Below are positions 7,794 to 50,687 of a stretch of 64,000 nucleotides of DNA, in pieces. Every line of letters begins with the position of its first letter. Within the stretch, counting starts at the first letter, position 1. The stretch covers positions 4,650,001 through 4,714,000 of the forward strand of contig NZ_CP134706.1 in NCBI RefSeq assembly GCF_038246755.1, given 5' to 3'. The stretch is from Micromonospora sp. FIMYZ51 (GTDB taxonomy: Bacteria > Actinomycetota > Actinomycetes > Mycobacteriales > Micromonosporaceae). The translations under genes were made by a program, and so were the position numbers. Under the pieces are notes generated by a model, which saw nothing but the letters and a program-made list of their open reading frames with translations, made no database searches and was not told the origin of the DNA.

Positions 7794-8704
7794 TGGCCGT
7801 CTCCGTCGACGAGGCCGTGTCCGCAGGTCCGGCCGGGGATCGCAGGCCCACCGTGCGCCGCCGGGGCGGCCGGGGCCGCGCCATGCTGGAGATCGCGCTG
7901 CTGACCGTGCTGGCCGTCGTGATGCTCTTCCCGGTGCTGTGGATGATCGAGACATCCATCAAGGAAAACCGGGACGTCTACGCGATCCCCGCCGAGTTCA
8001 TCGGCTTCACGGTCACCATGGAGCACTTCAAGGACGTGTTCGTCGGTCCCGACGGTGGTCGCTCGGCCTTGTCCGTCGCGTTCCTCAACTCCGCTCTGGT
8101 CGCCGGGCTCTCCACCGTGCTGGCCACCCTGCTGGGGGTCCCGGCGGCCTGGGCCTACTCACGCTTCGCGGTGAAGGCCAAGAAGGACCAACTGTTCTTC
8201 ATCCTGTCCACCCGTTTCATGCCGCCCGTGGTGGTCGTGATTCCGATCTTCCTCATGTACCGCCAGATCGGACTCATCGACAGCAAACTCGGCCTGATCC
8301 TCATCTACACCGCGTACAACCTCCCGTTCACGATCTGGATGATGAAGGGTTTCGTCGACGAGGTGCCTGCGGAGTACGAGGATGCCGCCATGCTCGACGG
8401 CTACACCCGTTTGCAGGCGTTCCGACGATTCACCCTTCCCCTGCTCGTGCCCGGCATCGCCGCGACGGCGGTCTTCGCACTCATCTTCTCGTGGAACGAG
8501 TTCGTGTTCGCCATCTTCCTCACCTCCAGCGACAGCGTGCGGACGGCCCCACCCGCCATCGCCGGGCTCATCGGGGGCACCACGACGGACTGGGGCCTGG
8601 TGGGCGCCGCCTCCGTGGTGTTCGCCCTACCGGTGCTCGTCTTCGCCTACCTGGTGCGCAAGCACCTCGTCGCCGGTGTGACGCTCGGGGCGGTGCGACG
8701 CTGA
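7793..8704 (+). CDS. ABC transporter permease (MalG/UgpE type)
   Basis: This 303-residue permease has six membrane segments. The EAA motif YEDAAMLDGYTRLQAFRRFTLPL is at about residues 195-217. Its ATG overlaps the stop of the previous permease by one base (TGATG), so translation is coupled. Length and order (binding protein, two permeases) are those of CUT1-type carbohydrate or polyol importers. Confidence 0.9.
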   Translation: MAVSVDEAVSAGPAGDRRPTVRRRGGRGRAMLEIALLTVLAVVMLFPVLWMIETSIKENRDVYAIPAEFIGFTVTMEHFKDVFVGPDGGRSALSVAFLNSALVAGLSTVLATLLGVPAAWAYSRFAVKAKKDQLFFILSTRFMPPVVVVIPIFLMYRQIGLIDSKLGLILIYTAYNLPFTIWMMKGFVDEVPAEYEDAAMLDGYTRLQAFRRFTLPLLVPGIAATAVFALIFSWNEFVFAIFLTSSDSVRTAPPAIAGLIGGTTTDWGLVGAASVVFALPVLVFAYLVRKHLVAGVTLGAVRR

Positions 8705-9771
8705 TGGCGGGCATCGACGTGAGCGCGCTGCACAAGCGCTACCCGGACGGGACGGTCGCTGTCGAGCACGTGGACCTGTCCATCAAAGACGGCGAGCTGT
8801 TCGTGATGCTCGGCCCTTCGGGTTGTGGCAAGACGACCACGCTACGAGCCATCGCCGGTCTGGAGCGGCAGACGACAGGCGACATCCGCATCGGCGACAC
8901 GCTGGTGAACGACCTACCGCCGGCCGAGCGCGACATCGCCATGGTGTTCCAGTTCTACGCTCTCTACCCGCATCTGCGGACCCGCGACAACCTGGCGTTC
9001 CCACTGCGGGCCGAGGGACTGCCCAAGGCAGAGGTACGCGAGCGGGTCGACCAGGCCGCCCGGCTGATGCGGCTCGGTCCGCTGCTGGACCGGCGACCGC
9101 GCCAACTGTCCGGCGGAGAGCAGCAGCGCGTCGCGCTTGCTCGCGCCCTGGTGCGACGACCGCGCGCATTCCTCATGGACGAGCCGCTCACCAATCTGGA
9201 CGCGGAGCTGAGGGCGGACATGCGCACGGAGATCAAGCACCTCCAGGGAGAGCTGGGGACGACGATGGTCTACGTCACCCACGACCAGGTCGAGGCGATG
9301 TCGCTCGGTCACCGAATCGCCATCCTCAACAAGGGCCGCGTCGAGCAGATCGGCACGCCGCTGGAGGTCTACGACCGTCCGGCGAGTCTCTTCTGCGCCG
9401 CATTCATCGGCTCCCCGCCGATGAACCTGATCGAGGTGGAGGTGGCCGACGGGAAGCTGCGCAGTCGGGGCGGCCTGGTCCTCACGCCACCGCCCGGCCT
9501 GCCGCGCGACCGTTGCCTGGTCGCAGGTGTCCGGCCGGAGGCGCTGGAAGTCACCGCGCCAGGGACGCAGGGTTCGGTCCCGGCCCGGGTGGTCTCGGCG
9601 GAGTGGCTGGGCGACGAGATCATCTACGTGGTGGACCACGGCGGCCAGTGCGACGTCCGAGTTCGGATGCCACCGACGGTCCGTTTCGCCGCTGACGCAC
9701 CGGTCGGGCTACGACACACCGGCGGGACCCCGGCGGTCTACGACGTGCGCACGGAAGAGCTGGTGGCCTGA
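8704..9771 (+). CDS. ABC transporter ATPase 1 (UgpC/MalK type, canonical)
   Basis: This 355-residue ATPase has all catalytic motifs: Walker A GPSGCGKT at residues 37-44, Q-loop near 82, signature LSGGEQ at 135-140, Walker B with DEP at 159-161 and switch His193 in VTHDQ. A C-terminal OB-type (TOBE) regulatory domain follows from about residue 235. The ATG overlaps the preceding stop (TGATG). It is followed at once by a second, different ATPase, so the transporter probably uses a heterodimeric nucleotide-binding pair, as in the rhizobial glycerol importer GlpSTPQV. Confidence 0.92.
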   Translation: MAGIDVSALHKRYPDGTVAVEHVDLSIKDGELFVMLGPSGCGKTTTLRAIAGLERQTTGDIRIGDTLVNDLPPAERDIAMVFQFYALYPHLRTRDNLAFPLRAEGLPKAEVRERVDQAARLMRLGPLLDRRPRQLSGGEQQRVALARALVRRPRAFLMDEPLTNLDAELRADMRTEIKHLQGELGTTMVYVTHDQVEAMSLGHRIAILNKGRVEQIGTPLEVYDRPASLFCAAFIGSPPMNLIEVEVADGKLRSRGGLVLTPPPGLPRDRCLVAGVRPEALEVTAPGTQGSVPARVVSAEWLGDEIIYVVDHGGQCDVRVRMPPTVRFAADAPVGLRHTGGTPAVYDVRTEELVA

Positions 9772-10847
9772 TGGGAACCGTGGCAGTGCACGGGCTGTGC
9801 AAGTCCTTCGGCAAGGTCCAGGCCCTGGACGGGGTGACGCTTGACGTACCGGACGGCTCGTTCTTCGTCGTGCTCGGACCCTCCGGGGCAGGCAAGACGA
9901 CGACCCTGCGAGCGATCGCCGGCCTGGAGAAGCTCGACGCCGGGTCGGTGCATCTGGACGGCAGGGACGCGACCGGTGACGCTCCGGCCGCACGCGACCT
10001 GGCCATGGTCTTCCAGAACTACGCTCTCTACCCGCGACACACGGCGTACGAGAACATCGCTTCGCCGCTGCGGGCACGCCGCTGTTCTCCGAGCGAGATC
10101 GCCGCTGCCGTCGCACAGATGTCGAGCCTGCTGCACATCGAACGGCTGCTGCAACGTCGTCCCGCGCAGTTGTCGGGCGGTGAGATGCAGCGTGTCGCCC
10201 TGGCCCGGGCGCTGGTCCGTCGCCCACGCGCGTTCCTGATGGACGAGCCGCTGACGAACCTCGACCTCAAACTCCGCGTCGAGATGCGCACCGAGCTCAC
10301 CCGCATCCACCGCAGCCTCGGCGCGACCTTCATCTACGTGACAAACGACCAGGTCGAGGCCCTGTCCATGGCCGACCAGGTCGCGGTCCTCAAGGAGGGG
10401 ACTGTGCAACAGGTCGGAACGCCGACCGAGGTGTACGAGCGTCCCGCCAACAAGTGGGTCGCAGGATTCGTCGGGAGCCCTCCGATCAGCCTGCTCGCCT
10501 GCCACGCCGAGGGAGATCGTCTGGTCGGTGCCGAAGGCTGGACGCTGCCACGGCCTCGCTGGACCACGGCTGAGGACGGTCGTGCGCTGCTGCTGGGCCT
10601 ACGGGCGGAGGACCTCTCCGTCGAGCAACGGGGGGACGCGTCGTTGTCGGGCGAGCTCTACGGGATCGAACCGCTCGGTGACCGAACTGTGGTCGACGTC
10701 CGGGTGGGGACGACGATCCTCAAGGTCAAGGCACGACCCACCGTCACCGGTACGCCGGGCCAGCGGCTGCGTGTGACGGTCGACCTGGACCGTGCGCACC
10801 TGTTCGATGCGGGCACCGGGCTGTCGCTGTCTGAGGCTGGGCGGTAG
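9771..10847 (+). CDS. ABC transporter ATPase 2 with Asn in place of the switch histidine
   Basis: This 358-residue ATPase has Walker A GPSGAGKT at 36-43, signature LSGGEM at 134-139, Walker B with DEP and a C-terminal TOBE domain. The H-loop reads VTNDQ rather than VTHDQ (codon AAC at about 10344), so residue 192 is Asn where ATP hydrolysis normally needs His. This suggests an asymmetric dimer with ATPase 1 in which one of the two ATP sites is impaired. The start codon overlaps the stop of ATPase 1. Function of the substitution is inference; the sequence is unambiguous. Confidence 0.9.
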   Translation: MGTVAVHGLCKSFGKVQALDGVTLDVPDGSFFVVLGPSGAGKTTTLRAIAGLEKLDAGSVHLDGRDATGDAPAARDLAMVFQNYALYPRHTAYENIASPLRARRCSPSEIAAAVAQMSSLLHIERLLQRRPAQLSGGEMQRVALARALVRRPRAFLMDEPLTNLDLKLRVEMRTELTRIHRSLGATFIYVTNDQVEALSMADQVAVLKEGTVQQVGTPTEVYERPANKWVAGFVGSPPISLLACHAEGDRLVGAEGWTLPRPRWTTAEDGRALLLGLRAEDLSVEQRGDASLSGELYGIEPLGDRTVVDVRVGTTILKVKARPTVTGTPGQRLRVTVDLDRAHLFDAGTGLSLSEAGR

Positions 10848-17391: not shown

Positions 17392-18332
17392 CGCACGGCC
17401 TCGATCCGTGGTGCGAGGCGGAACGCGACCAGGTCGGCGGCCAGGTTCACCGCCACTGTGGTGACGGCGACGAGGACGCACAAAGCCTGGACGGTGGGGA
17501 TGTCGCGGGTGGACACGGCATCGACGAGGGCGGTGCCGAGCCCGGGGATGACGAACACCGCCTCGACGACGATGACGCCGCCGAGCAGCCAGTCGGTGGT
17601 TCGGGCGAGTTGCTGCACGACCGGCGCCAGAGCGCCGGGCAGGGCATGGCGAAGCCAGAGCCGGCTGCCGGCGATGCCGAGCCGTCGGGCGTGGCGCACG
17701 TACTCGCCGTGCAGGGCGTCGAGCATGCCAGCGCGGGTGAGTCGGCTGATGGTGCAGATCGGCCGGGCGAGTAGCACGAGCATCGGCAGCACGAGCACGG
17801 ACGGCCTGGTGAGCAGGTCGACGCCGAACGCGGTGGGAGGTAGCCAGCCGAGTCGGACGCCGAAGACGGCGATGAGCAGAATCGCCAGGGCGAACTCGGG
17901 CACCGCGTAGAGCGCGACCGACACCGCGGACACCGCCCGATCTAGTCGCCCCCCTTCTCGGCGGGCCGCCAGCATGCCCAGTGCGATGGCGAGCGGTATC
18001 AGAACGAGGAGAGTCACCGCCGCCAACAGGAGGGTGGTGCCCGCGCTGTCGGCGAGCCGGTCGACGATCGGCCGCTGCGAGATCAGCGAGACGCCGAGGT
18101 CGCCGCGTATCAGGTCGGTCAGCCAGTCGAGGTAGCGCTGCCAGGCCGGTCGGTCGAGGTTCAGTTGCGCTCGGATCGCGGCGATGCGGGCCGGATCGGG
18201 GTGGTCGCCGGCGATCACCACCGCGGCGTCACCGGGCAGCGCCTCGGTGAGCACGAACACGATGGTGGTGATCCCGGCGACCTGCCCGAGGCCGAGCAAC
18301 AACCGCCCGGCGGCATAGCGGGGCAGACTCAC
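17388..18332 (-). CDS. ABC transporter permease, DppB/NikB type
   Basis: This 314-residue permease has the DppB N-terminus (membrane segment then LPGDAA) and the C-terminal EAVFVIPGLGTALVDAVSTRDIP motif of the family. It starts with a GTG that overlaps the stop of the binding-protein gene (GTGA). Together with the fusion protein downstream it would form the membrane channel for a peptide, nickel or metal-opine-like substrate. Confidence 0.9.
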   Translation of the reverse strand: MSLPRYAAGRLLLGLGQVAGITTIVFVLTEALPGDAAVVIAGDHPDPARIAAIRAQLNLDRPAWQRYLDWLTDLIRGDLGVSLISQRPIVDRLADSAGTTLLLAAVTLLVLIPLAIALGMLAARREGGRLDRAVSAVSVALYAVPEFALAILLIAVFGVRLGWLPPTAFGVDLLTRPSVLVLPMLVLLARPICTISRLTRAGMLDALHGEYVRHARRLGIAGSRLWLRHALPGALAPVVQQLARTTDWLLGGVIVVEAVFVIPGLGTALVDAVSTRDIPTVQALCVLVAVTTVAVNLAADLVAFRLAPRIEAVR

Positions 18333-38568: not shown

Positions 38569-38737
38569 AGCGATGCAAGGTAGGGACGTCGGTTCGACAA
38601 GGTTCGAGACACCGATCAGTGAGGGCTGATGCCTGCCCTGAAGCGGGTCCCGGCTGTCGGCCGGCTTGCGTGATCGCCTGGGCGCGGTGTCCGGCGGAAC
38701 GGTTTGCCCACGTCAGGAAGCAGGGAGAGTCGCCATC

Positions 38738-40459
38738 ATGAGCGAGGATCAGAGCGCCGGGCCGTGCTGCGGCACCGCGCAGGCCGCCGAGCAGGCCGAT
38801 GCCTGCTGCGACCCGGGCGCGAAGACCGAGGCGGTCGCCGCGGGCGCGGGCTGCTGCGGCACCAGCGACGCATCATCCGTCGCTGATGACACCGTGGCGG
38901 CGCGGACGACCGGGGTGACCGGTCAGACCGGGCGGGTCGACGGGCCGCACTCGGTCGTGGTCATCGGCGCCGGCCCGGTGGGGCTGGCGGCGGCGGCGCA
39001 CCTGCACGAGCGGAGACTGCCGTTCACCGTGCTGGAGGCCGGGCCCTCGGCCGGGGCGGCCGTGGCCGAGTGGGGGCACGTGCGGCTGTTCTCGCCATGG
39101 CGCTACAACGTCGACCATGCCGCCCGCCGACTGCTCGAGGCCGCGGGCTGGGCCGCCCCCGACCCCGAGACGCTGCCCACCGGCGCGGACCTGGTCGAGG
39201 CGTACCTGCAACCCCTGGCCACGCTGCCGCAGATCGGCCCGCACGTCCGCTACGACGCGCCGGTCGCGGCGATCGGCCGCGTCGGCGTGGACCGGGTCAA
39301 GACCGCCGGCCGCGAGTATGCGCCGTTCGTCGTGCGGCTCGCCACCGGCCAGGACGTGCTCGCCTCGGCGGTGATCGACGCCTCCGGCACCTGGCGCACC
39401 CCGAACGTGCTCGGCGCCAACGGCCTGCCCGCGCACGGTGAGACCGACCCGCAGACCGCGACGCTGATCGACGGCGCGCTGCCCGACGTGCTCGGCGCCG
39501 ACCGCGATCGGTTCTCCGGCCGGCACAGCGTCGTCGTCGGCGCGGGACACTCCGCCGCGAACACGCTGCTCGCGCTCGCCGAGTTGGCCGAGCAGGAGCC
39601 GGGCACGACCATCACCTGGGCCACCCGCGGCGGCTCGGTCGATCGGGCGCTCGGTGGCGGCGACGCCGACGCGCTGCCCGGCCGTGGCGCGCTGGGCACC
39701 GGGATCAAGCTGCTCGTCGACTCCGGCCGCGTCCGGTTGGTCACCGGCTTCGCCGTGCACGCCGTCACCGCCGTCGACGGGCACGCCGAGCTGACCGCCG
39801 CCGACGGGCGTACCCTGGCCGCCGACCGGATCATCGCCGCCACCGGCTTCCGGCCCGACCACACCATCGCCGCCGAGCTGCGTCTCGACCTGGACCCCGC
39901 GCTGGGCTGCACCCGGACCCTCGCGCCGCTGATCGACCCGAACGAGCATTCCTGCGGCACCGTCCGCCCGCACGGCGTCGACGAGCTCACCCAGCCGGAG
40001 CCCGGCTACTTCGCCGTCGGTATGAAGTCCTACGGCCGCGCCCCGACCTTCCTCATGGCCACCGGCTACGAGCAGGTCCGCTCCATCACCGCCGCCCTCG
40101 CCGGGGACTGGACCGCCGCCCGCGACGTGCAGCTCGACCTACCCGAAACTGGCGTCTGCTCCGCCACCCAGGGCTACCAGGCAATGCTCGACGACGCCGC
40201 CGCCCGATACGGCCTCGACCCGGACATCCCGAACCGGCTCATCTCCGCGGCCCTGCGCCACCTGCCCACCGCCGGCACGGTCGCCGCCGCCACCCGCGCC
40301 GCCGCCGACGAACTCAGAGTCGACCCCGACGTCGCACTGCAACTCGCCGCCCTCGCCGGGAACCAGTTCGACACCAGCCAGGACACCACAGAGGCCGCTC
40401 TGCCGCGCGCCGAGGTCGGCCTGGTCGCCGTCTCCTCCGGTGGCGGCTGCTGCGGGTGA
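38738..40459 (+). CDS. FAD/NAD(P)-binding oxidoreductase with terminal Cys pairs (arsenic-associated)
   Basis: This 573-residue flavoprotein has an N-terminal tail of about 40 residues with three Cys pairs (PCCG, ACCD, GCCG), a first Rossmann motif GAGPVGLAAA near residue 76, and a second one GAGHSAANT near 270. The chain ends in GGGCCG. Flavoproteins of this kind (ArsO-like) recur in actinobacterial ars operons but their reaction is not settled. The Cys pairs at both ends suggest trivalent arsenic binding. The ATG at 38738 has GGGAGAG upstream. It is divergent from arsR and coupled to the MFS gene. Confidence 0.85.
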   Translation: MSEDQSAGPCCGTAQAAEQADACCDPGAKTEAVAAGAGCCGTSDASSVADDTVAARTTGVTGQTGRVDGPHSVVVIGAGPVGLAAAAHLHERRLPFTVLEAGPSAGAAVAEWGHVRLFSPWRYNVDHAARRLLEAAGWAAPDPETLPTGADLVEAYLQPLATLPQIGPHVRYDAPVAAIGRVGVDRVKTAGREYAPFVVRLATGQDVLASAVIDASGTWRTPNVLGANGLPAHGETDPQTATLIDGALPDVLGADRDRFSGRHSVVVGAGHSAANTLLALAELAEQEPGTTITWATRGGSVDRALGGGDADALPGRGALGTGIKLLVDSGRVRLVTGFAVHAVTAVDGHAELTAADGRTLAADRIIAATGFRPDHTIAAELRLDLDPALGCTRTLAPLIDPNEHSCGTVRPHGVDELTQPEPGYFAVGMKSYGRAPTFLMATGYEQVRSITAALAGDWTAARDVQLDLPETGVCSATQGYQAMLDDAAARYGLDPDIPNRLISAALRHLPTAGTVAAATRAAADELRVDPDVALQLAALAGNQFDTSQDTTEAALPRAEVGLVAVSSGGGCCG

Positions 40460-41730
40460 CCACCAGCCCTGCCACCGACGTCCCCGCCGGCCACATCGAC
40501 GCCGGCGGGGACAGCCGCGGACGGACCATGGTCGCCGCGCTCGCCATCACCCAGACCATCGGCTACGGCACCCTCTACTACGCCTTCGCCGTCCTGCTCA
40601 TCCCTCTGGCAACCGACCTGCACACCAGCACCACGACGGTCACCGGAGCATTCACCGCCAGCGTCCTGACCGGCGCCATATTGGCCGTGCCGGTCGGCCG
40701 GTGGCTTGACCGCCACGGTGGCCGTGCCCTGATGACCACCGGCTCCGCAGCCGGCGTCGTCCTGCTACTGCTGTTCAGCCGCATCGACACGGTATGGCAG
40801 CTCTACGCGATACAGATCGGCATCGGCATCGCCTGCGCCGCCAGCCTTTACGAAGCCGCGTTCGCCGTCGTCATCGCCTGGTTCACCCCCCAGCAGCGCG
40901 CCACCGCACTGCTCGCACTGACCGTGGTGGCCGGCTTCTCCAGCACCATCTTCCTGCCCCTGACCGGCTGGCTGGTGGCCACCCACGACTGGCGCACCAC
41001 CCTGCTCGTCCTCGCCGCCGTGCAGGCAGCCACCGTGCCACTACACGTCCTGACCGTGCGCCGGCCACCCCGCATCCCTAACAGCCCGACCGCGAGCCCG
41101 CACCAGGCCGACGGCACTCGCGCAGGGACGTTCGCTGTACGGGCGGCACTGGCCGACCGCGCATTTTGGCTGCTGGCCGCCGGATTCACCGCGCACACCG
41201 CCGCGATCAGCGCGCTGACCGTGCACCTGGTCGCCGCGCTCGTCTCCTTCGGCCATCCGCCCGCGTTCGCCGCCGGGATCGCCGGACTACTCGGGGTGCT
41301 GTCCGTGGCCGGCCGGCTGGTCACCACCGGGCTGCAACGCCGCTATCCCACCACCATCGTCACCGCGACAGTGTTCGCCGTCCAAGCAGCCGCCGCGCTG
41401 GCCCTGCCCGTCATCGGCGCCAGTACCGGCGGCGCGATCGGTGCCGTCATCGGCTTCGGCATCGGCTTCGGCGTCGCCACCATCGCCAAGCCGGTGATCC
41501 TCGCCGAACGCTACGACACCCGCCGATACGCCACCCTGGCCGGCGTCCTCGTCGTCCCCATGACCCTCGCCAAAGCCGCAGGTCCCCTCGCGGCGGCGGC
41601 CCTGCATGCCACCACCGACAGCTACACCCCGGTCCTGGCCGCCGTCGCGACCTGCTGCGCCATCGCAGCCGCCGCCATCGCCACCGTGATCTCCCACCCG
41701 GCGGCCAACCGCCAGGCCACCGGGCCGTGA
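40456..41730 (+). CDS. MFS transporter of the ars island
   Basis: This 424-residue protein has twelve membrane segments and an MFS motif [13 protein letters not shown] after helix 2. Its GTG overlaps the stop of the flavoprotein (GTGA), so the two proteins are made together. It may export the product of that enzyme, for example an arsenic adduct or organoarsenical; a similar logic holds for ArsJ systems, though this is not ArsJ with its GAPDH partner. Substrate is inference. Confidence 0.85.
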
Positions 41731-42202: not shown

Positions 42203-43111
42203 CTACCGCCCGGCTGGTGATGCACCACCCTCGACGCAAGATTGCTGTCCAGCCCCCCGCCGCCGCATGCCACAGCCGACATCCGGCGCGGAGGCGCTCC
42301 GTGCAGGCATTGGTCTCGTGGCGAAGGTGACCGGTGCGTCGAAGGCTGCGCGGCGGGCGGCGCGGCGGAGGGCGGCCAGGACGGCGGGTCCGACCAGGAC
42401 GATTGCCACAGTGGTGGTAACGGCGCGGCCGGTGTCCCAGCCGAAGGTGGAGGTGACGGCGGTGAACACGGCGAAGCGGTGCAGGTTCTCCAGGACCGGT
42501 GCCCCAGCGACGTAGGAGAGTTGGGTGTCCGCGCCGGTGCTGAAGGGCCAGAACCACAGGTTCATCAGCAGTCCGTAGCCGTAGGCGGCGATCGCACCGT
42601 AACCGGCCAGCACAGCAATCTCGGCCCGGCCCCGTAGCCGGGCCGGTAGCAGTCCAGCACCGAGGCCAATCCAGGCGGCGGCCAGCATCTGGAACGGCAG
42701 CCACGGGCCTACGCCGGCGGTGAGCAGGGCGGAGGCGAACAGCGAGGTGGCGCCGAGCAGGAACCCGAAGCCGGGCCCGAACACCCGGCCGGCGAGGACG
42801 AGTAGGAAGAACACCGTCTCGATGCCGGCGGTGCCGGCGCCGAGGGGGCGTAAGGCGGCGTTGACGGCGGCGAGCACGCCGAGCATCGCCAGGGCCTTGC
42901 TGTCGATGCCGCCGGAGCTGAGTTCGGCCAGGACGATGGCCAGGAGTACGGGTAGTACGGCGACGAAGACCAGCGGCGCCTCAGTGGTGCGGGCCATGCT
43001 TTCGGGTTGGGCTGGCACGAAGAACGGCCAGCTGAAGGTGGCCAGCGCGGCGACGGAGGCCAGAGCCAGGACGACGGCCGTACGCGGGGCGACCCGCAGG
43101 GCGGTCGTCAT
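42203..43111 (-). CDS. ECF transporter S component (putative cobalamin-type)
   Basis: This 302-residue membrane protein has about seven hydrophobic segments. It includes the AALRPLGAGTAGIETVFFLLVLAGRVFGPGFGFLLGATS region seen in substrate-specific subunits of energy-coupling-factor importers. It is the last gene after EcfT and the fused EcfA proteins, with ATGA overlap at its start. The transcription unit begins with a cobalamin riboswitch, so cobalamin or a precursor is the likely ligand. The last 40 residues are basic and cysteine-containing and look unlike the family, perhaps because the original stop was lost. Confidence 0.82.
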   Translation of the reverse strand: MTTALRVAPRTAVVLALASVAALATFSWPFFVPAQPESMARTTEAPLVFVAVLPVLLAIVLAELSSGGIDSKALAMLGVLAAVNAALRPLGAGTAGIETVFFLLVLAGRVFGPGFGFLLGATSLFASALLTAGVGPWLPFQMLAAAWIGLGAGLLPARLRGRAEIAVLAGYGAIAAYGYGLLMNLWFWPFSTGADTQLSYVAGAPVLENLHRFAVFTAVTSTFGWDTGRAVTTTVAIVLVGPAVLAALRRAARRAAFDAPVTFATRPMPARSASAPDVGCGMRRRGAGQQSCVEGGASPAGR

Positions 43112-44739
43112 CCCCGTGCTCCGGCGTCGGCCAGCACGGCGGTGACCTGCTCCACGGTCAGCCAGGCCTGAGGTGCCAGAACCTTGGCGACCTGCGGGGC
43201 GAACGCGGGTGAGGCGAGCATGACCTCGGCGGCGGTGCCGTCGGCCACGATCTCCCCCTGTGCCATCACGACGACCCGGTCGGCGAGCGTGGCGACGAGT
43301 TCGACGTCGTGGGTGGCGACCACGACCGCTCGGCCTTCGGCGGCCAGCCGCCGGACAATGGCGGTGAACTGCCGTTTGGCGAGGTAATCGAGTCCTCGGG
43401 TGGGCTCGTCGAGCAGCACGACCGGTGGTGTGGCGGTGAGCTGGACGGCTAGGGCGAGGGCCAGCCGCTGCCCTTCCGACAGGTCGCGTGGGTGCTGGTC
43501 GCCGGGCAGCCCCGGGGTGAGCTGGTCGAGCAGGCCACGGCACGTGCCCGCCGGAGCGTCGGACTCGCGTTCGGCCTGGACGCATTCGGCGTCCACCGTC
43601 TCCAGATAGAGCAGGTCTCCCGGGGTTTGCGGGACCAGTCCGACCTGTCGTCGGGCCCGGCCGGCGGCAAGTGTCTTCGGGTCGGTGATGCCGTCGGGGC
43701 CGGTGACGGTGACCGTGCCGCCCTGTCGGGGCCCGCTGCCCTGTAACGCCCAGAGCAGGCTGGACTTACCGGAGCCGTTGCGGCCCATCAGCGCGACGAC
43801 CTGGCCACAGTGCAAATCGAGGTCGACGCCGGCAACCGCGACGGTGCCGGGGTAGCGCACCACGATCTGGCGGGCGGTCAGCGCCAAGAGGCCATCAGGT
43901 GCCGACGCCACCGGCGGTGGAGTGGCGTCGGCGAGCCGCTGCCGCAGGTCCGATGCGCGGCGGCGGGCGTCGCGTACGGACAGCGGCAAGGGTGCCCAGC
44001 CCGCGGCACGGCCCAGTTCGACAAGTGGTGGGGCGAGGTCGATGTCGGCGAGGACGGCAGCCGGTTCGCCGTCGACGACGGTGCCGTCGCCGGGCAGGTA
44101 GAGCAGCCGGTCGGCGTACTGCACGACACGTTCGAGGCGGTGTTCGGCCACCACGACGGTGACGCCGAGGTCGTGGACCAGGCGGGTGACGGTGGCCAGC
44201 ACGTCCTCCGCTGCGGTGGGGTCCAGGGCGGAGGTCGGCTCATCGAGAACGAGCACCTGCGGGTGGCTGGTGAGCACCGCGCCGATGGCAACCCGCTGCT
44301 GCTGCCCACCGGAGAGCGTCCGCAGTGGGCGGTCTCGCAGCTCCGCGATGCCGAGCAGGTCGAGGGTCTCCTCGACGCGCTTACGCATGACCGACGCGGG
44401 CAGGGCGAGTTGTTCCATGCCGTAGGCCAGTTCCTCTTCGACGGTGTCGGTGACGAAGCCGGCGAGCGGGTCCTGGCCGACGACTCCGACGACGTCGGCC
44501 AGGTCGCGTGGAGGGTAGCTGCGGGTGTCGCGGCCCTGCACGGTGACGGTGCCGTACAGGGTGCCGCCGGTGAAGTGCGGCATCAGCCCGTTGATGGCCC
44601 GCAGCAGGGTCGACTTGCCGGCACCGGTGCGGCCGGCGACCAGGCACAGCTCTCCCTCAGGGATGTGCAGGTTCACCTCGCGCAGCATCGGTTCGCGGGT
44701 CTCGGCGTAGTGGACGGTGACACGGTCAAACTCGATCAT
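43108..44739 (-). CDS. fused ECF ATPase subunits (EcfA-EcfA')
   Basis: This 543-residue protein has two ABC domains. The first has GRTGAGKST, LSGGQQQRVAIG and LDEPTSALD with an AEHRLERV switch. The second (from about residue 285) has GRNGSGKSS, a divergent signature LSEGQRLALAL and LDEPTRGLD with a THDVELV switch. Fused EcfA pairs are known in actinobacteria. It powers the importer with EcfT upstream and the S component downstream; both junctions are ATGA overlaps. Confidence 0.92.
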   Translation of the reverse strand: MIEFDRVTVHYAETREPMLREVNLHIPEGELCLVAGRTGAGKSTLLRAINGLMPHFTGGTLYGTVTVQGRDTRSYPPRDLADVVGVVGQDPLAGFVTDTVEEELAYGMEQLALPASVMRKRVEETLDLLGIAELRDRPLRTLSGGQQQRVAIGAVLTSHPQVLVLDEPTSALDPTAAEDVLATVTRLVHDLGVTVVVAEHRLERVVQYADRLLYLPGDGTVVDGEPAAVLADIDLAPPLVELGRAAGWAPLPLSVRDARRRASDLRQRLADATPPPVASAPDGLLALTARQIVVRYPGTVAVAGVDLDLHCGQVVALMGRNGSGKSSLLWALQGSGPRQGGTVTVTGPDGITDPKTLAAGRARRQVGLVPQTPGDLLYLETVDAECVQAERESDAPAGTCRGLLDQLTPGLPGDQHPRDLSEGQRLALALAVQLTATPPVVLLDEPTRGLDYLAKRQFTAIVRRLAAEGRAVVVATHDVELVATLADRVVVMAQGEIVADGTAAEVMLASPAFAPQVAKVLAPQAWLTVEQVTAVLADAGARG

Positions 44740-45989
44740 CGGCGCGCCTCCGGCTGCGTGGTGTCGCGGCTCGGTGCGCTACGGGCCGTACGGTTCAGTG
44801 GTGGGGTGGACGGCAGTCGCGAAGCAGGGCTTGCCGCCAGCGTCGGCGGCGGTGCCAGCCAGGCCGGCGCCACCGCGACCACCACGGCCAGCAGCATCAG
44901 CGAGGTCAGTTCAGGCCAGGTCAGCGGGCTGACCGGCGGGTAAAGCCGGGACGGGTCCACGGATCCGGCGCCCATCATCACCGCGGCGCCGGCCACCCCG
45001 CAGCCCGCGACGGCGAGTTCCGTGATCCGCCAGCGATCCGGCCGGTAGCGGCTACGGCGGACCCGACGGCCGGCCAGCAGCATCCCGATGACGGCCGCCG
45101 CCAGCCCGGCGAGCAACATCGGCAAGCCGAGGTAGCCGGGCACGGTGGCATCGAGCAGCCCGTACGTGCCAACGCAGACACCGACCAGCCCGACGAGCAC
45201 CAGCCCACCGGTGAGAGCTCGCTGGCCGGCCGGTATCGCGGCGGTGCGGCCGTAGCCGCGGGAGTCCATAGCCGCCGCCAGGACAAGGGATCGGTCCAGG
45301 GCGTCGGCCAGCACCGGCAGGGCGATGCCCCGCAGGGCGCGCAGACCCTGTCCGGCAGCACCACGCAGCCGGCGGGCCCGGCGTACCCGCAGCACGCTCT
45401 CGACCAGTTGCGGAGCCACCGACAGCGCGACCACCACGGCTGTGCTGACCGCATAAAGGGCGCCGGGAACCGCCTTGAGGAGGCGCTTCGGGTTGGCCAG
45501 GGCGTTGGCGGCACCGAGGCATACGAGCATCGCCGCCAGGCGCAGTCCGTCGTAGAAGCCGCCGAGAAGTTGTTCGGCGGCGACCGGCCCGAACAGTCGG
45601 ATGCCGGCCGCCCATTCCGGCAGCGGGATCGCCGGCAGGTGAAACAGAATGAACTCACCTTGTCCGCCGCCGAAGACAAGGCGGAACACCACCCGCATGG
45701 CCACGATCACCGCGCCGAGCACCAGGTACAGCCGGAACGCCAGCGCCCAGGGAGCGTCGCCGCGGCGGCGGACGACCACCAGCGCGGCGGCGGCGATGAG
45801 CAGCGCCAGAGGCAGCGGGTTGGTGGTGTGACTGGCGGCGGTCGCCAGGCCGAGCGCCCACAGCCACCAGGCGCCCGGATGCAGCAGCCGCGGCAGCCGT
45901 CCGGGCCCCGCCGTATCGGGTCGGGTCGCCAACCGTGCCACCGACATCCGCTGGACTGCGCCGCTGCCAGCGGCGACCTGCTCAGTCAT
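44736..45989 (-). CDS. ecfT: ECF transporter T component
   Basis: This 417-residue membrane protein has a core of the EcfT family. The two coupling motifs are RVRRARRLRG (about residues 195-204) and SLVLAAAMDSRGYGR (about 227-241), which contact the ATPases. A C-terminal extension of more membrane segments (from about 255) makes it longer than the usual 260-residue EcfT. The ATG at 45989 overlaps the end of the DUF4430 gene by 8 nt. It is part of the B12-riboswitch unit. Confidence 0.9.
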   Translation of the reverse strand: MTEQVAAGSGAVQRMSVARLATRPDTAGPGRLPRLLHPGAWWLWALGLATAASHTTNPLPLALLIAAAALVVVRRRGDAPWALAFRLYLVLGAVIVAMRVVFRLVFGGGQGEFILFHLPAIPLPEWAAGIRLFGPVAAEQLLGGFYDGLRLAAMLVCLGAANALANPKRLLKAVPGALYAVSTAVVVALSVAPQLVESVLRVRRARRLRGAAGQGLRALRGIALPVLADALDRSLVLAAAMDSRGYGRTAAIPAGQRALTGGLVLVGLVGVCVGTYGLLDATVPGYLGLPMLLAGLAAAVIGMLLAGRRVRRSRYRPDRWRITELAVAGCGVAGAAVMMGAGSVDPSRLYPPVSPLTWPELTSLMLLAVVVAVAPAWLAPPPTLAASPASRLPSTPPLNRTARSAPSRDTTQPEARR

Positions 45990-46944
45990 CCGGTTCGGCG
46001 GCCCGCCGGCGGCGAGCCGCGACGACCCCGCCACCAGCGAGCGCGACCAGTAGGAGCAGCCCAGCCAGGGTGCCAAACGGTAGCCCGTCGGTGTCGCGGG
46101 CGGCGGTTGTCTCGGTCGGCGGGAGCGAGTTCGTCGACTCGGCCGATGATGCTGCGGGCGCGGCCCCGAGTGGCGGGCCGCCCGCCTCTGTCGGCGATGC
46201 CTCCGTCGCTGGGACAGGCGGGCTTCCGGAGAACGTCGCACCAGCGGCGGCGGTGGCTGACGTGCCCACCGCTCCGGTCGGCGCGCTGCCGCCTGGCCCG
46301 GCCGACCCGACAGGGGCACCGGCGACCGGTGGTGGGACGTTCGGCGGCGAGGAGGAACGGGCTGGAGACGCCGGTGCCGTGGTACGCCCAGGCAGGGCCG
46401 GTGGTGTGGTGCGGGAAGGTGGTGCCGGTGGCGTGGTGCGCGGCGGAGGTGCTGGCCGGGTGGGTGCCACCGCCGGTCGGGGGGCGTTGTCGGAATTGCG
46501 GTTCAGGGAGAACGACCAGCCTTCGAAGCTGCCTGCCGGTGGCTTGCGGTTGAGCACACCCTTGTCGCTGTACGTCCAGCTGCCGCCATTGGGTGCGTGC
46601 CAATACGACCAGTAGGCGCTGGCCGGGGGCGTATCGACGCATTTTTCCTCGCTGGCCGAGGGTTTGCCCCCGATCCGGCAGACGAACCCCTCGCCCCAGC
46701 GCAGCGTGCCCGTGATTTGAAAGCCAGCGTTCTTCAACGCTGCCAATCCGGTGGTTTGGTCGCCGAGGGCACACCGGACGACCGTGCCGCCACCGAGTTC
46801 CTTGAAGTCCACCACGACGGTGACGCCGCCGGTGTCCGGGCAGTAGCCGGCGCTGCCGGCAGCCACAGCCGGCCTTGGCCCGACCAGGACGGTGGTGGCG
46901 GCCAGGGCGAGAACGAACGCGGTCCGGGTCGCCCGGGTGCTCAT
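45982..46944 (-). CDS. membrane-anchored DUF4430 (transcobalamin C-terminal-like) protein
   Basis: This 320-residue exported protein has a signal peptide (about 1-28). One DUF4430 domain at about 35-130 shows VTVVVDFKELGGGTVVRCAL, GLAALKNAGF, GEGFVCRIGG and SAYWSYWHAPNGGSWTYS. A long Pro/Thr/Ser linker and a C-terminal membrane segment with RRRR stop-transfer follow. DUF4430 is related to the beta domain of transcobalamin and intrinsic factor, which covers the upper face of bound B12. Gene start overlaps the barrel-protein stop (ATGA). It sits between a barrel protein and an ECF importer, so a role in B12 capture is proposed. Confidence 0.82.
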   Translation of the reverse strand: MSTRATRTAFVLALAATTVLVGPRPAVAAGSAGYCPDTGGVTVVVDFKELGGGTVVRCALGDQTTGLAALKNAGFQITGTLRWGEGFVCRIGGKPSASEEKCVDTPPASAYWSYWHAPNGGSWTYSDKGVLNRKPPAGSFEGWSFSLNRNSDNAPRPAVAPTRPAPPPRTTPPAPPSRTTPPALPGRTTAPASPARSSSPPNVPPPVAGAPVGSAGPGGSAPTGAVGTSATAAAGATFSGSPPVPATEASPTEAGGPPLGAAPAASSAESTNSLPPTETTAARDTDGLPFGTLAGLLLLVALAGGGVVAARRRRAAEPDD

Positions 46945-48413
46945 GTGGCCCGCCGGCGGCCGAGCACCAGCAGCACCGCTCCCCCACCGAGCAGCAGCAG
47001 CGCGATGAGCACGTACCCGCCGATCGCCGCACCGGTGGTCGGCAGGCGACCCGGCCCGCCTGCGGCGGGACTGCTGACAGGGGAGGTGGGAGTCGACGCT
47101 GTCACGGTCGGCGTGGGTGTCGACGGTACGACGCTCGGCGTCGGACCGCCGGTGGGCGAGGTGGTCGGCGTGGGTGACGCGGTCAGGGTCGGTGAGCCAG
47201 AGGGCGTTGGTGCGGCGGTGGGCGTGGGCGACCCCGTCGGCCTCGGTGGCACGGTTGGCGACGAGGTGGGTTCGCCGGAGGGCGGCAGATCGAGGCCGAT
47301 CCGGCCCAGCGGTATCTGGGCCAGCCCGAGGAGCGCCTGGGCGGTGGCGCGGCGCCACTGATCCCGGAAGTTCGCGGCGATTCCCTCGCGTACCGCCTCG
47401 GTCAGCGCGTCGCTGGCGTAGGCGACGGCACCGGCATCGGCCGCCGCGGCGCCGCCGTTGGCGGTGGTGAGCTGCAGCGTCGCCAGGGCCTGCGCGGCCC
47501 GCGCCGCCTCGGCGTCGCGTCCCGCTGCGGCCAGCGCCTGCCCAGCGAGGCCGGTGCTATTGGAGTTCGCGCCACTGGTCGGCCCCGACCCGCCGAACGA
47601 TCCGTCGGTGCGTTGCTGCGTCACCAGCCAGTCCGCGCCGCGCTGTGCGGCCTCGTCCGCGCCGGTGACGTCGGTCGCGAGCAAGGCTTGAACGGCCATG
47701 GCGGTCGAGTCGACGTCGAGGGTGGCGTTGGCCTGAGCGTCGCAGGACGGCGACGGCGCGCCGTCCGCGTCGGGATAGAGCCGGAAACCGCCGGCCGTGC
47801 ACTGCTGCCGGATGAGGAAGTCGACGGTCTGCTGCGGCACGCCACCGCTGCGGGCCAGGCCCAGCACGGCAAAGGACTGGTCGAAGGTATTGCTCGGGTC
47901 CGGGCCGGTCGCCTCGGTGGTCCGGCTGGTGATCCGGCCGTGCTGGTGGCCGGTGCCCGCCCCGGAGATCAGGGCCAGGGTCTCGGCGCGTAGGTCCCAG
48001 CCGCCGAAGTCGGTGGGGTCGGCACCGGCGGCGGAGGCGGCGTAGAGCAGTTTCGCGGTGGCGCCGCCGTCGGTGAAGCTCTCGATGCCCCAGTCGTCGT
48101 AGCTGTTGTAGGACCGCACGTGCATAGCGATCTGCGCCGTCGCCGCCTGCCGAGTCGAGCTAGCTACACCGGTGGCGGCGAGGGCGATCACTCCGTCGAT
48201 GCTCAGCCCCCAGTCCTCGCCGCCGAAAGGGCCTGGCAGAACTCCGTCGGCGTACTCACCAGCGAGCCAGGTCGCGGCGTCGCGCGCGGCGGCGGTGTGG
48301 ATCGGCGACGGCGCGGCAGTCACGCCGATGGGGGTGGCCGCGACGATGGCGAGCGCCATGGCGGTGGCGCTGCCGAGACCGGCGCCGAGGCGCCGGAGCG
48401 GGAACGTGGGCAT
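46941..48413 (-). CDS. LPTTG-anchored alpha/alpha-barrel protein (transcobalamin N-terminal-like)
   Basis: This 490-residue exported protein has a signal peptide (about 1-34). An all-helical repeat domain at about 38-350 resembles prenyltransferase/squalene-cyclase repeats, with QQRTDGSFGG, SSNSTGLAGQAL-like NSNSTGLAGQALAAAGR and STAMAVQALLA. A Ser/Thr/Pro-rich stalk of about 100 residues leads to LPTTG at 457-461, a membrane segment and RRRAT, the layout of sortase substrates. The barrel is the fold of the large transcobalamin domain. It is the first gene after a cobalamin riboswitch. A GGTGCCTT/AAGGCACC hairpin at 48418-48460 covers the ribosome-binding region. Confidence 0.83.
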   Translation of the reverse strand: MPTFPLRRLGAGLGSATAMALAIVAATPIGVTAAPSPIHTAAARDAATWLAGEYADGVLPGPFGGEDWGLSIDGVIALAATGVASSTRQAATAQIAMHVRSYNSYDDWGIESFTDGGATAKLLYAASAAGADPTDFGGWDLRAETLALISGAGTGHQHGRITSRTTEATGPDPSNTFDQSFAVLGLARSGGVPQQTVDFLIRQQCTAGGFRLYPDADGAPSPSCDAQANATLDVDSTAMAVQALLATDVTGADEAAQRGADWLVTQQRTDGSFGGSGPTSGANSNSTGLAGQALAAAGRDAEAARAAQALATLQLTTANGGAAAADAGAVAYASDALTEAVREGIAANFRDQWRRATAQALLGLAQIPLGRIGLDLPPSGEPTSSPTVPPRPTGSPTPTAAPTPSGSPTLTASPTPTTSPTGGPTPSVVPSTPTPTVTASTPTSPVSSPAAGGPGRLPTTGAAIGGYVLIALLLLGGGAVLLVLGRRRAT

Positions 48414-48417
48414 GCGG

Positions 48418-48460
48418 GGTGCCTTTCGCAGAGCGGTCGGTGAAAGCTCCGGAAGGCACC
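48418..48460 (-). promoter_or_regulatory. ribosome-binding-site sequestering hairpin of riboswitch 1
   Basis: Perfect 8-bp arms GGTGCCTT (48418-48425) and AAGGCACC (48453-48460) bracket 27 nt directly before the ATG at 48413. On the mRNA the 3' arm contains the AAGG Shine-Dalgarno bases. It is the likely switch that closes translation when the upstream aptamer binds cobalamin. Confidence 0.6.
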
Positions 48461-48540
48461 GGCGGAGGACAATCCACGACGGATTGCCGTACCTCGGTTG
48501 CCCGGACTCCACCCTGTAGACCTCGACAGTGGAAGCCGCT

Positions 48541-48633
48541 CGTCCTGTGCGGGGCATTCCGGCTCGCGAGACAGGTCTCGCTCACGGTTGCGGGTCAGCG
48601 CCGGCTTCTACCGGCTTCCCCCCGAACAGGACG
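48541..48633 (-). promoter_or_regulatory. cobalamin riboswitch 1
   Basis: On the minus strand the core GGGGGAAGCCGGTAGAAGCC continues GGCGCTGACCCGCAACCGTGA, the conserved cobalamin riboswitch heart. It is followed by the B12-box-like GCGAGCCGGAATGCCCCGC. CGTCCTGT and ACAGGACG (48626-48633 and 48541-48548) form the closing P1 stem. The element is compact. It precedes the anchored barrel/DUF4430/ECF genes. Confidence 0.88.
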
Positions 48634-48656
48634 TATTCAGTTGTGTACCCGGCGCA

Positions 48657-48718
48657 CCGGGTGTCGCCACCGTACCGCCTGGTCGCCTCTCGGCGCCAGC
48701 GTGGCGGTCGACACCCGG
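48657..48718. terminator. hairpin between the two B12-riboswitch units
   Basis: CCGGGTGTCG (48657-48666) and CGACACCCGG (48709-48718) are perfect 10-bp arms, with inner GCCAC/GTGGC pairing. It lies after the stop of the soluble DUF4430 gene (48751) and before riboswitch 1, where a terminator would separate the two units. Confidence 0.6.
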
Positions 48719-48750
48719 CACGTCAACGGTTCATGGCGGACATAGCCACG

Positions 48751-49239
48751 TCAGGGGGCGGTGATGCTGGGTGCCGCGCCGGAGCCGAAGGACCAGCCCT
48801 CCACCGTGCCCGGCGCCGGGTTGTAGCTGGTCGCTCCCGACGTGCTGTACGTCCACGCGGCACCGCTGCCGGAGGCGTGCCAGTACGACCAGTACGCGCT
48901 GACCGGCGGGGTATTGACGCAGGGTTCCGTCGCGGCGGTCGGCTGGCCGTTGATCCGGCAGACGAAGGCCAACCCCCACCGTTGCGTACCGGTCACCGTG
49001 AAACCAGCACCCTGTAGGGCGGCCAGCCCAGTGGCCGGGTCGCCGAGCGCACACGCCACCTGGACGCCGCCGCCGAGTGAGCCGTAGTCGACCACCACGG
49101 TGACTCCGGACGTCCCGGTGCACGCGGCGGCCTGGGCAACCTGCGGAGACGGCTCGACAGCGACCAGCCCGACGGCGACGACACCGGCCGCCACAAGGCT
49201 CGCGAGCCACCGACGGACGGGATTGTGGACACGGAACAT
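48751..49239 (-). CDS. small secreted DUF4430 (transcobalamin C-terminal-like) protein
   Basis: This 162-residue protein has a signal peptide (cleavage near AQAA, about residue 37) and then a single DUF4430 domain up to the C-terminus. The segments VTVVVDYGSLGGGVQVACAL, GLAFVCRINGQP and SAYWSYWHA match the anchored paralogue almost word for word. It has no linker or membrane anchor, so it should be released. AAGGAG lies 7 nt before the ATG at 49239. It follows the soluble barrel gene in the riboswitch 2 unit. Confidence 0.83.
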   Translation of the reverse strand: MFRVHNPVRRWLASLVAAGVVAVGLVAVEPSPQVAQAAACTGTSGVTVVVDYGSLGGGVQVACALGDPATGLAALQGAGFTVTGTQRWGLAFVCRINGQPTAATEPCVNTPPVSAYWSYWHASGSGAAWTYSTSGATSYNPAPGTVEGWSFGSGAAPSITAP

Positions 49240-49276
49240 GGACACTCCTTCGGTGGTACGGGTTGTGTCGGAGGGG

Positions 49277-50320
49277 TCAGCGGCAGACAAGAGTGGGTGC
49301 GCCGGTGGTCGCGGTGGTGGTGGAGAGCCGGGCGTATCCGGTACCGGTCAGCCCCAGGACGGCTTGAGCGGTGGCGCGGATGGCAGTGCCGGGGTCGAAG
49401 GCGCCGCCGTCGAAGTCGACCGCTCCCCGATTGGCCGGGGGCGCGGTGCAGCCGACCTGCAATCCGGCCAGGAACACGCGAGCCCGCAGCCAGGCCAGCG
49501 GCCGGCCACCGTCGCGCAGCGCCTGCGCCGCCAGCCCGGTGCTGTTGGCGTTGGCTACTCCGTCGATGTTGGTGAACCCGCCGTCGGCACGTTGCACGGA
49601 GACCAGCCAGCGCAAGCCAGCCGCAGCGTCGGCCCATCGGCCGGCGGCCCGCAACGCCTGCACCACCAGGGCGGTGGCATCCACATCGGAGGTGCATACC
49701 GGTTGCGCGGGCAGCAGGGGGTAGCCGCCGTCCGGGCACCGGGTGCCGGCCAGCCAGCCGGCGGCGACCGCCGGCACACCCTGCGCGGTCCGCTTCAGCG
49801 CAAGAATCGCGAAGGACTGGCTGAAGGCGTTGCTGAAGTCGCCCCACGCTGACTGGTCGGTGAACCGGCCACCGGGTGTCTGAAGCGATCGCAACCGGGC
49901 GATGAGGTCCACACCCCCGACGTCGGTCGGGTCGCCGCCGCGTACCGCGACGGCCAGCGCGAGTTTGGCGGTCGCGCCCGCGTATGCCTCCGTGGTGCCG
50001 TCGCCGATGTACCCGTCCCGGACACTAGGCTGGCTAATCCAGGCGAGTGCCGGTGCGCCGAAGTCGTCGGCGACACCGGCAGCGGCAAACGCGAACACCG
50101 CGTCGAGAGTCAGCCCTTGGTCGGGATACGCGACGCCGTCAAAAACGGCCTCGAAGCGTTCCCCATCGACCAGTTGGCGGGCCAACCAACCTGCGGCCGC
50201 ATCCGAGCGGACGGCACCCACCGGGATGGGGGTGGCAAGCGCCGGTGTGGCGAGGGTGAGGGCGGCGACGACACCGCAGAGTAGGGCGAGCAGGCGGTGC
50301 CGGCTCAGGCGAACGACCAT
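49277..50320 (-). CDS. secreted alpha/alpha-barrel protein (transcobalamin N-terminal-like)
   Basis: This 347-residue exported protein has a signal peptide (about 1-28, ending ATPALAT). Helical repeats of the prenyltransferase/squalene-cyclase type follow, with SVQRADGGFTN, NANSTGLAAQALRDGG and DVDATALVVQALRAAG. They closely parallel the anchored paralogue but lack the stalk, LPTTG and membrane segment. GGAAAGG precedes the ATG at 50320 within a GGAA...TTCC hairpin that may be the regulatory platform. It is the first gene after cobalamin riboswitch 2. Confidence 0.83.
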   Translation of the reverse strand: MVVRLSRHRLLALLCGVVAALTLATPALATPIPVGAVRSDAAAGWLARQLVDGERFEAVFDGVAYPDQGLTLDAVFAFAAAGVADDFGAPALAWISQPSVRDGYIGDGTTEAYAGATAKLALAVAVRGGDPTDVGGVDLIARLRSLQTPGGRFTDQSAWGDFSNAFSQSFAILALKRTAQGVPAVAAGWLAGTRCPDGGYPLLPAQPVCTSDVDATALVVQALRAAGRWADAAAGLRWLVSVQRADGGFTNIDGVANANSTGLAAQALRDGGRPLAWLRARVFLAGLQVGCTAPPANRGAVDFDGGAFDPGTAIRATAQAVLGLTGTGYARLSTTTATTGAPTLVCR

Positions 50321-50428
50321 CGGAAGCGCCTTTCCGGCCCGGCGGTCGTCAGAACCCGGCCGCCCGTGAGGACACGGTTGACCGGCCTCCGACCCGTGGG
50401 CCACGACGGGTGAGGAGCAGGACTCACG

Positions 50429-50527
50429 GGTACGGCAGGTATTCGGGCTCGCCACCGGGAATGCGCCCCGGTGGCCTACCGTTGCGGGCCAGCGCCGGAC
50501 TTGGACCGGACTTCCCCCGCACGTACA
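50429..50527 (-). promoter_or_regulatory. cobalamin riboswitch 2
   Basis: On the minus strand GGGGGAAGTCCGGTCCAAGT continues CCGGCGCTGGCCCGCAACGGTAG. The B12 box GCGAGCCCGAATACCTGCC (50438-50456) is a nearly perfect match to the consensus. GTACG/CGTAC can close the outer stem. It lies about 110 nt upstream of the soluble barrel gene. Confidence 0.92.
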
Positions 50528-50687
50528 CGCGGCTGTTCAGTTGTCGCGCCAGTCTCGTTCGCCATACGGCCGCTGTCAATCCGCAACCGAACAAACACCT
50601 TATGTCACTTCTCCGCGCTGGTTCCGCTGCGCACACAAGGTGTGTGCCCCTCACCTCTCGAACCTGCGACAGGTCCGAGTCCGGCCG

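Follow-up and report, generated by a model that had tools for sequence, protein, structure and literature searches.

The 64,000-nucleotide window analysed here is a stretch of the 7.05 Mb genome of Micromonospora sp. FIMYZ51; coordinates are positions in this window unless another locus is named. Between positions 50605 and 42203 its minus strand carries two successive gene units, each headed by a cobalamin riboswitch. In unit 1 the riboswitch is followed by a secreted toroid protein (barrel 1) and a small SLBB protein (SLBB 1). In unit 2 it is followed by barrel 2, SLBB 2 and the components of an energy-coupling factor (ECF) importer, in the order EcfT, EcfAA' and EcfS. The closest relatives of the locus genes are from Micromonospora. 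We propose that the locus is probably devoted to the scavenging of corrinoids (vitamin B12), with extracellular capture feeding a dedicated ECF importer. Its features are the following.

50417..50605, minus strand: cobalamin riboswitch 1 (RF00174), 96 nt upstream of the start codon of barrel 1
49277..50320, minus strand: barrel 1, secreted alpha/alpha toroid, 347 aa, without anchor
48751..49239, minus strand: SLBB 1, secreted, 162 aa, without anchor; probably distantly DUF4430-like, SCO2322-like, PF28005-type
48553..48667, minus strand: cobalamin riboswitch 2 (RF00174), 139 nt upstream of the start codon of barrel 2
46941..48413, minus strand: barrel 2, toroid-type, 490 aa, with an LPTTG sorting signal
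45982..46944, minus strand: SLBB 2, 320 aa, with a Pro-rich linker and a C-terminal hydrophobic anchor
44736..45989, minus strand: EcfT, membrane component of CbiQ type, 417 aa (403 aa with a start at 45947)
43108..44739, minus strand: fused EcfA-EcfA' ATPase, 543 aa, with two ATP-binding cassette domains (PF00005, two stretches)
42203..43111, minus strand: EcfS substrate-binding membrane component, 302 aa (PF12822)

The signal peptides of barrel 1 and SLBB 1 were called by eye. Four-base overlaps connect barrel 2 with SLBB 2, EcfT with EcfAA' and EcfAA' with EcfS, and the upstream start of EcfT falls inside the 3' end of SLBB 2, so that unit 2 reads as one operon. A preliminary description of this DNA had placed EcfT, a fused EcfAA' and EcfS with barrels and small proteins in two consecutive minus-strand units, and the gene models agree. 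It had also reported two secreted helical-repeat barrel proteins and two cobalamin riboswitch cores. Barrel 1 is indeed predicted to be an alpha/alpha toroid, barrel 2 is of the same type, and both riboswitches pass a covariance-model search. The upstream boundary, given there as 50527, moves to 50605 when the whole of riboswitch 1 is counted.

Against RF00174 (gathering score 31.5 bits), riboswitch 1 scores 36.5 bits in the window search and 39.7 bits in the search of its own genome, and riboswitch 2 scores 36.0 bits. These are the sole Rfam matches above threshold within the window. Conservation of the riboswitches was surveyed in 79 relatives' loci, all taken from named genomes. These loci are not independent, since resemblance to barrel 1 was the criterion for choosing them and many come from close kin. 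The riboswitch core motif is found at most 700 bp 5' of a same-strand barrel domain in 70 of the 79. It occurs 90 times in all, 83 times within that distance, and is never found in three simulated sequence sets with the same dinucleotide make-up. Nine loci are motif-negative. Seven of them were given to Rfam, and four of these (L040, L079, L091 and L094) hold cobalamin riboswitches. In the other two, L045 and L057, a core motif is present at another place in the locus, the one in L045 preceding a fusion gene.

Two of these loci have riboswitch arrangements of their own. L091 (Actinocrispum wychmicini) carries an adenosylcobalamin-type riboswitch at 10037-10178, before its second barrel, and an extra, strong cobalamin riboswitch (93.9 bits) at 18082-18292, close to where the EcfS frame ends. 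In L094 (Catellatospora tritici), back-to-back cobalamin riboswitches, at 8516-8646 (minus strand) and 8677-8826 (plus strand), lie between divergent barrel genes.

EcfS passes the PF12822 model with 31.9 bits (cut-off 30.7). EcfT lies just below the cut-off of PF02361 (CbiQ; 23.9 bits, cut-off 25) and matches solved EcfT chains (5d3m_D, E 2.7e-4). An S component, a T component and two ATPase domains are thus encoded by adjoining, overlapping genes, as in a dedicated ECF module. The linkage is common in relatives. Gene content was counted by single-sequence search in 80 loci, the 79 relatives plus the window. T, A and S components are all present in 57 of them, an SLBB protein in 67 and all seven kinds of gene in 45. 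The exact order barrel, SLBB, anchored barrel, anchored SLBB, T, A, S is observed in 21. The association of a toroid with a CbiO/CbiQ-like transporter, which marks the transcobalamin-like clade of SLBB proteins, is therefore also seen at the relatives' loci. Some lineages, such as Saccharothrix (L049, L051), have a single anchored unit, also led by a riboswitch.

The B12 economy of the genome points in the same direction. Five cobalamin riboswitches are found in it. Of the three outside the window, one lies before an NrdA-like ribonucleotide reductase gene, one before MetE and one before a BtuF-like gene, behind which come BtuC-like and ATPase genes. The same type of switch thus governs both B12-sparing enzymes and the import of B12. 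An NrdB-like gene is located 1.5 kb beyond the riboswitch-linked NrdA-like gene; between the two lies a TnpB/IS605 OrfB-like gene (L127:7957-9132, minus strand; PF07282, PF01385). Seven B12-binding-domain matches indicate that the organism uses B12. CobS is present, and searches for two corrin-ring families, CbiC/CobH and CbiJ/CobK, find none in this genome; the same searches match 7 and 3, respectively, of 14 control genomes. The organism therefore probably cannot make the corrin ring, the absence of two families being good, if incomplete, evidence of auxotrophy. Taken together, the conserved riboswitches, the T/A/S linkage and this B12 economy support well the B12 capture and ECF import put forward in the preliminary description.

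Over 277 aligned residues the two barrels show 38% identity, and they have polar residues in common. Barrel 2 ends with LPTTG, a hydrophobic stretch and RRR; no anchor is seen in barrel 1. The small proteins are arranged likewise. SLBB 1 and SLBB 2 are 59% identical over 133 residues, and SLBB 2 ends with a hydrophobic stretch and RRRR, SLBB 1 having no anchor. These signals argue that pair 2 should remain at the cell.

The identity of the small proteins required profile comparisons. The NCBIfam model SCO2322_fam matches them below its cut-off. The newer family PF28005 (PF28005.1) appears as a precomputed label on 109 of 120 SLBB homologues among the matches listed; the Pfam copy used for the window proteins returned no match to it. 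Comparison of the SLBB alignment with 30 DUF4430 domains, profile against profile, gives a score of 31.6 (probability 71%, E 3.9e-5). None of 100 column-shuffled controls scores as high (maximum 25.9), and the reversed control gives 7.9. In P0338, a fused relative, the SLBB domain has the predicted order bb-a-bb-bb (strand-strand-helix-strand-strand-strand-strand). This is the order given in the available part of PMC13385337 for the C-terminal domain of transcobalamin (4zrpA02, bb-[abb]-bb). A search of PDB sequences with the SLBB profile returned only matches at E of at least 1.8. Of the DUF4430 identity claimed in the preliminary description, membership of the Pfam family itself does not stand, PF14478 being unmatched in both proteins; a distant relation is likely, with modest support from the profile comparison and the element order.

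The relatives also contain natural single-chain proteins in which an SLBB domain, two barrels and an anchor follow each other. All PDB fold matches listed for the P0338 model are toroids. From these single chains we argue that the separate barrel and SLBB proteins work together. A shortened fusion frame is also present at L052:10931-12871, where the first part of the SLBB domain is joined to the end of barrel A and the whole of barrel B; P0254 (638 aa) and P0257 (634 aa) resemble it in length and coverage.

Soluble and anchored proteins mostly separate on trees. The soluble/anchored label changes 4 times among 115 barrels, against 35.7 in shuffles, and 7 times among 120 SLBB proteins, against about 40; the trees are quick FastTree reconstructions with long-branch warnings, from which double-barrel open reading frames were excluded. 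For the most part at least, soluble and anchored barrels thus form distinct, old lineages. At E 1e-3, 86 of 197 genomes of the class contain the SLBB type; many of the weaker matches cover only part of the profile. In Micromonospora itself the distribution is patchy: the SCO2321 model is matched in 15 of 24 genomes at E 1e-3, some weakly, and nine are unmatched.

These data suggest the following mechanism. When cobalamin is scarce, the two riboswitches would permit expression of both gene sets, the sign of control being that expected from the riboswitch family. Each set would export two proteins, one an alpha/alpha toroid and the other a small SLBB protein of beta-grasp-like type. By analogy with the two domains of transcobalamin, toroid and SLBB protein may close as two chains around one corrinoid. 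Pair 1, which is anchorless, may diffuse. Pair 2 would be held at the wall and membrane by the LPTTG signal and the C-terminal hydrophobic anchor observed in its sequences, and would pass its ligand to the co-encoded EcfS-EcfT-EcfAA' for import. The preliminary description had already interpreted each pair, named barrel/DUF4430 there, as a two-subunit B12 clamp. This is a supported inference, to which gene adjacency, the toroid fold with its shared polar residues and the SLBB-barrel-barrel fusions lend indirect support; closure around a corrinoid is the part drawn from the transcobalamin analogy. Further still goes a two-tier relay, in which a diffusible two-chain transcobalamin, or “cobalophore”, would collect B12 at a distance from the cell and hand it to a wall-anchored two-chain copy and then to the dedicated ECF importer, the SLBB-barrel-barrel receptors being a fused form of the same machine. 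The preliminary description had compared a soluble plus anchored set with a haemophore relay. We put the two-tier relay forward as a tentative and, at present, rather doubtful extension.

Several observations weigh against B12 capture by these proteins. Three of the 79 relatives' loci (L076, L083 and L088) have no cobalamin riboswitch by motif or by Rfam. The T component is undetected in 20 of the 80 loci. Half of these, ten loci, fall below 14 kb, and the other ten have their full length (18.7-19.1 kb), so that either the importer linkage is common and not universal, or the search misses some T components. A search of PDB sequences with the single EcfS sequence, which is insensitive, found nothing at E 5, and the EcfS ligand is therefore not given by homology. 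Neither SLBB protein matches PF14478, nor any other family at E 0.1, and the PF14478 search gives no match in the whole genome; the model matches 34 of 198 genomes of the phylum. The SLBB/DUF4430 comparison depends on its settings, the probability falling from 71% to 15% (E 0.0018) with another column setting. The structure prediction of P0338 has a predicted template modelling score of 0.59, so that the placement of its domains is uncertain. Of 52 positions that are strongly conserved in the family of barrel 1, 18 are different in barrel 2, so that the two barrels may bind differently. The barrels do match the toroid fold of transcobalamin and intrinsic factor, a fold common to many enzymes, and class II terpene cyclases are their top fold matches, scoring above transcobalamin. 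Finally, the genome also encodes the riboswitch-linked BtuF/BtuC-like importer.

This last point leads to the alternative that we take most seriously, while judging it improbable. Because a second riboswitch-linked importer exists, the ECF system could serve another corrinoid: its substrate would be, say, cobinamide or some other corrinoid precursor or special cobamide, and the BtuF/BtuC/ATPase-like set would be the main B12 importer. The presence of CobS, a late salvage step, fits such a role. Against it, the architecture does not hint at a choice of ligand, and human carriers, BtuF and CbrT take both cobalamin and cobinamide, according to the available part of PMC5997447. A role of the ECF module in cobalt import, the surface proteins then serving some other role, appears very unlikely to us. 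It would explain why EcfT is nearest to the CbiQ family PF02361, which, however, we take to include T components in general. The family matched by EcfS, PF12822, comprises S components of vitamin type, and the Pfam search reported no CbiM family. Since neither CbiC nor CbiJ is found in the genome, the organism probably has no need of cobalt for ring synthesis.

At least as remote is the idea that the barrels are secreted enzymes, acting on sugars or resembling terpene cyclases. Besides the leading terpene cyclases, several glycoside hydrolases score near the top in the fold search. Database names of barrel homologues are also of enzyme type (“prenyltransferase/squalene oxidase repeat”, “terpene cyclase/mutase”, “peptidase”). 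However, DXDD is the motif of class II terpene cyclases, and in an alignment to squalene-hopene cyclase the equivalent site is incomplete, reading DVDA in barrel 1 and DVDS in barrel 2, with Ala and Ser as fourth residues. The conserved cobalamin riboswitches, the secretion and the fusion to SLBB domains also argue against enzymes. We therefore rank this role low and retain corrinoid scavenging as the preferred explanation.

Outside the locus, the window contains at 38666-41730, on the plus strand, a flavin adenine dinucleotide oxidoreductase with weak similarity to the ArsO family (64.7 bits, cut-off 425), followed by a major facilitator superfamily transporter that resembles the ArsK family (157.5 bits, cut-off 400). 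These two genes are possibly an arsenic-related pair.

The basic idea is already in print. In the available part of their article, Burroughs et al. (2007, PMC1796856) describe secreted or wall-anchored SLBB proteins of Gram-positive bacteria, commonly fused to alpha/alpha toroids. Their genes sit with CbiO- and CbiQ-like genes, in hosts usually lacking key enzymes of B12 synthesis. B12 scavenging was predicted there for the bacterial toroid and SLBB proteins, and animal transcobalamins were proposed to derive from Gram-positive bacterial proteins. The present system resembles that clade in its secreted or anchored toroid and SLBB proteins, in the second paralogous SLBB protein often found in the operon, in its CbiO/CbiQ-like neighbours, in a host that probably cannot make the corrin ring and in the predicted role in B12 scavenging. 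In contrast to the toroid-SLBB fusions and solo SLBB proteins of the 2007 clade, separate genes form two pairs here, each led by a riboswitch, in Actinomycetota, and the SLBB proteins are too diverged for Pfam DUF4430. What is new relative to the same part of PMC1796856 is that toroid and SLBB are encoded by separate genes, that one pair is anchored and the other is not, that cobalamin riboswitches are conserved at these loci, that the system extends through Actinomycetota and that SLBB-barrel-barrel fusions exist. In a partial literature search of open-licence PMC articles, including the tags SCO2321-SCO2325, no paper with experiments on these proteins was among the matches listed.

Animal transcobalamin and intrinsic factor share the toroid fold with the present barrels, and their beta domain has the element order predicted for the SLBB domain of the fused relative. 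Both are absent from the best 50 VIA-align fold matches of barrel 1, as well as from the sequence matches listed for the toroid profiles at E 1 and E 10. They are, however, single chains with the toroid before the beta domain, whereas two chains are found here and the natural fusions begin with the SLBB domain followed by two toroids. As for the importer, the accessible part of PMC5997447 reports that cobalamin import was demonstrated for ECF-CbrT of Lactobacillus delbrueckii, an importer of the type for which it is predicted here. Unlike ECF-CbrT, the Micromonospora system has a dedicated module, a fused A-A' protein, S in the same operon and additional extracellular binding proteins. Capture of B12 at the surface ahead of a membrane importer, as proposed here, is known from the BtuG lipoproteins of Bacteroides described in part of the review PMC6977713. 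BtuG is, however, a beta-propeller acting with the outer-membrane protein BtuB, so that fold and envelope differ. In its available part, this review mentions only variations of known machinery.

To our knowledge, B12 capture outside the membrane is poorly known in Gram-positive bacteria. The gene set described here is widespread and marked by riboswitches. Among the homologues listed, its proteins often go under the names “peptidase”, “prenyltransferase repeat” or “hypothetical protein”, and their predicted function is directly testable. A split carrier would allow the halves of a transcobalamin-like clamp to be studied as separate proteins. The system also bears on the 2007 proposal of a Gram-positive origin for animal transcobalamins.
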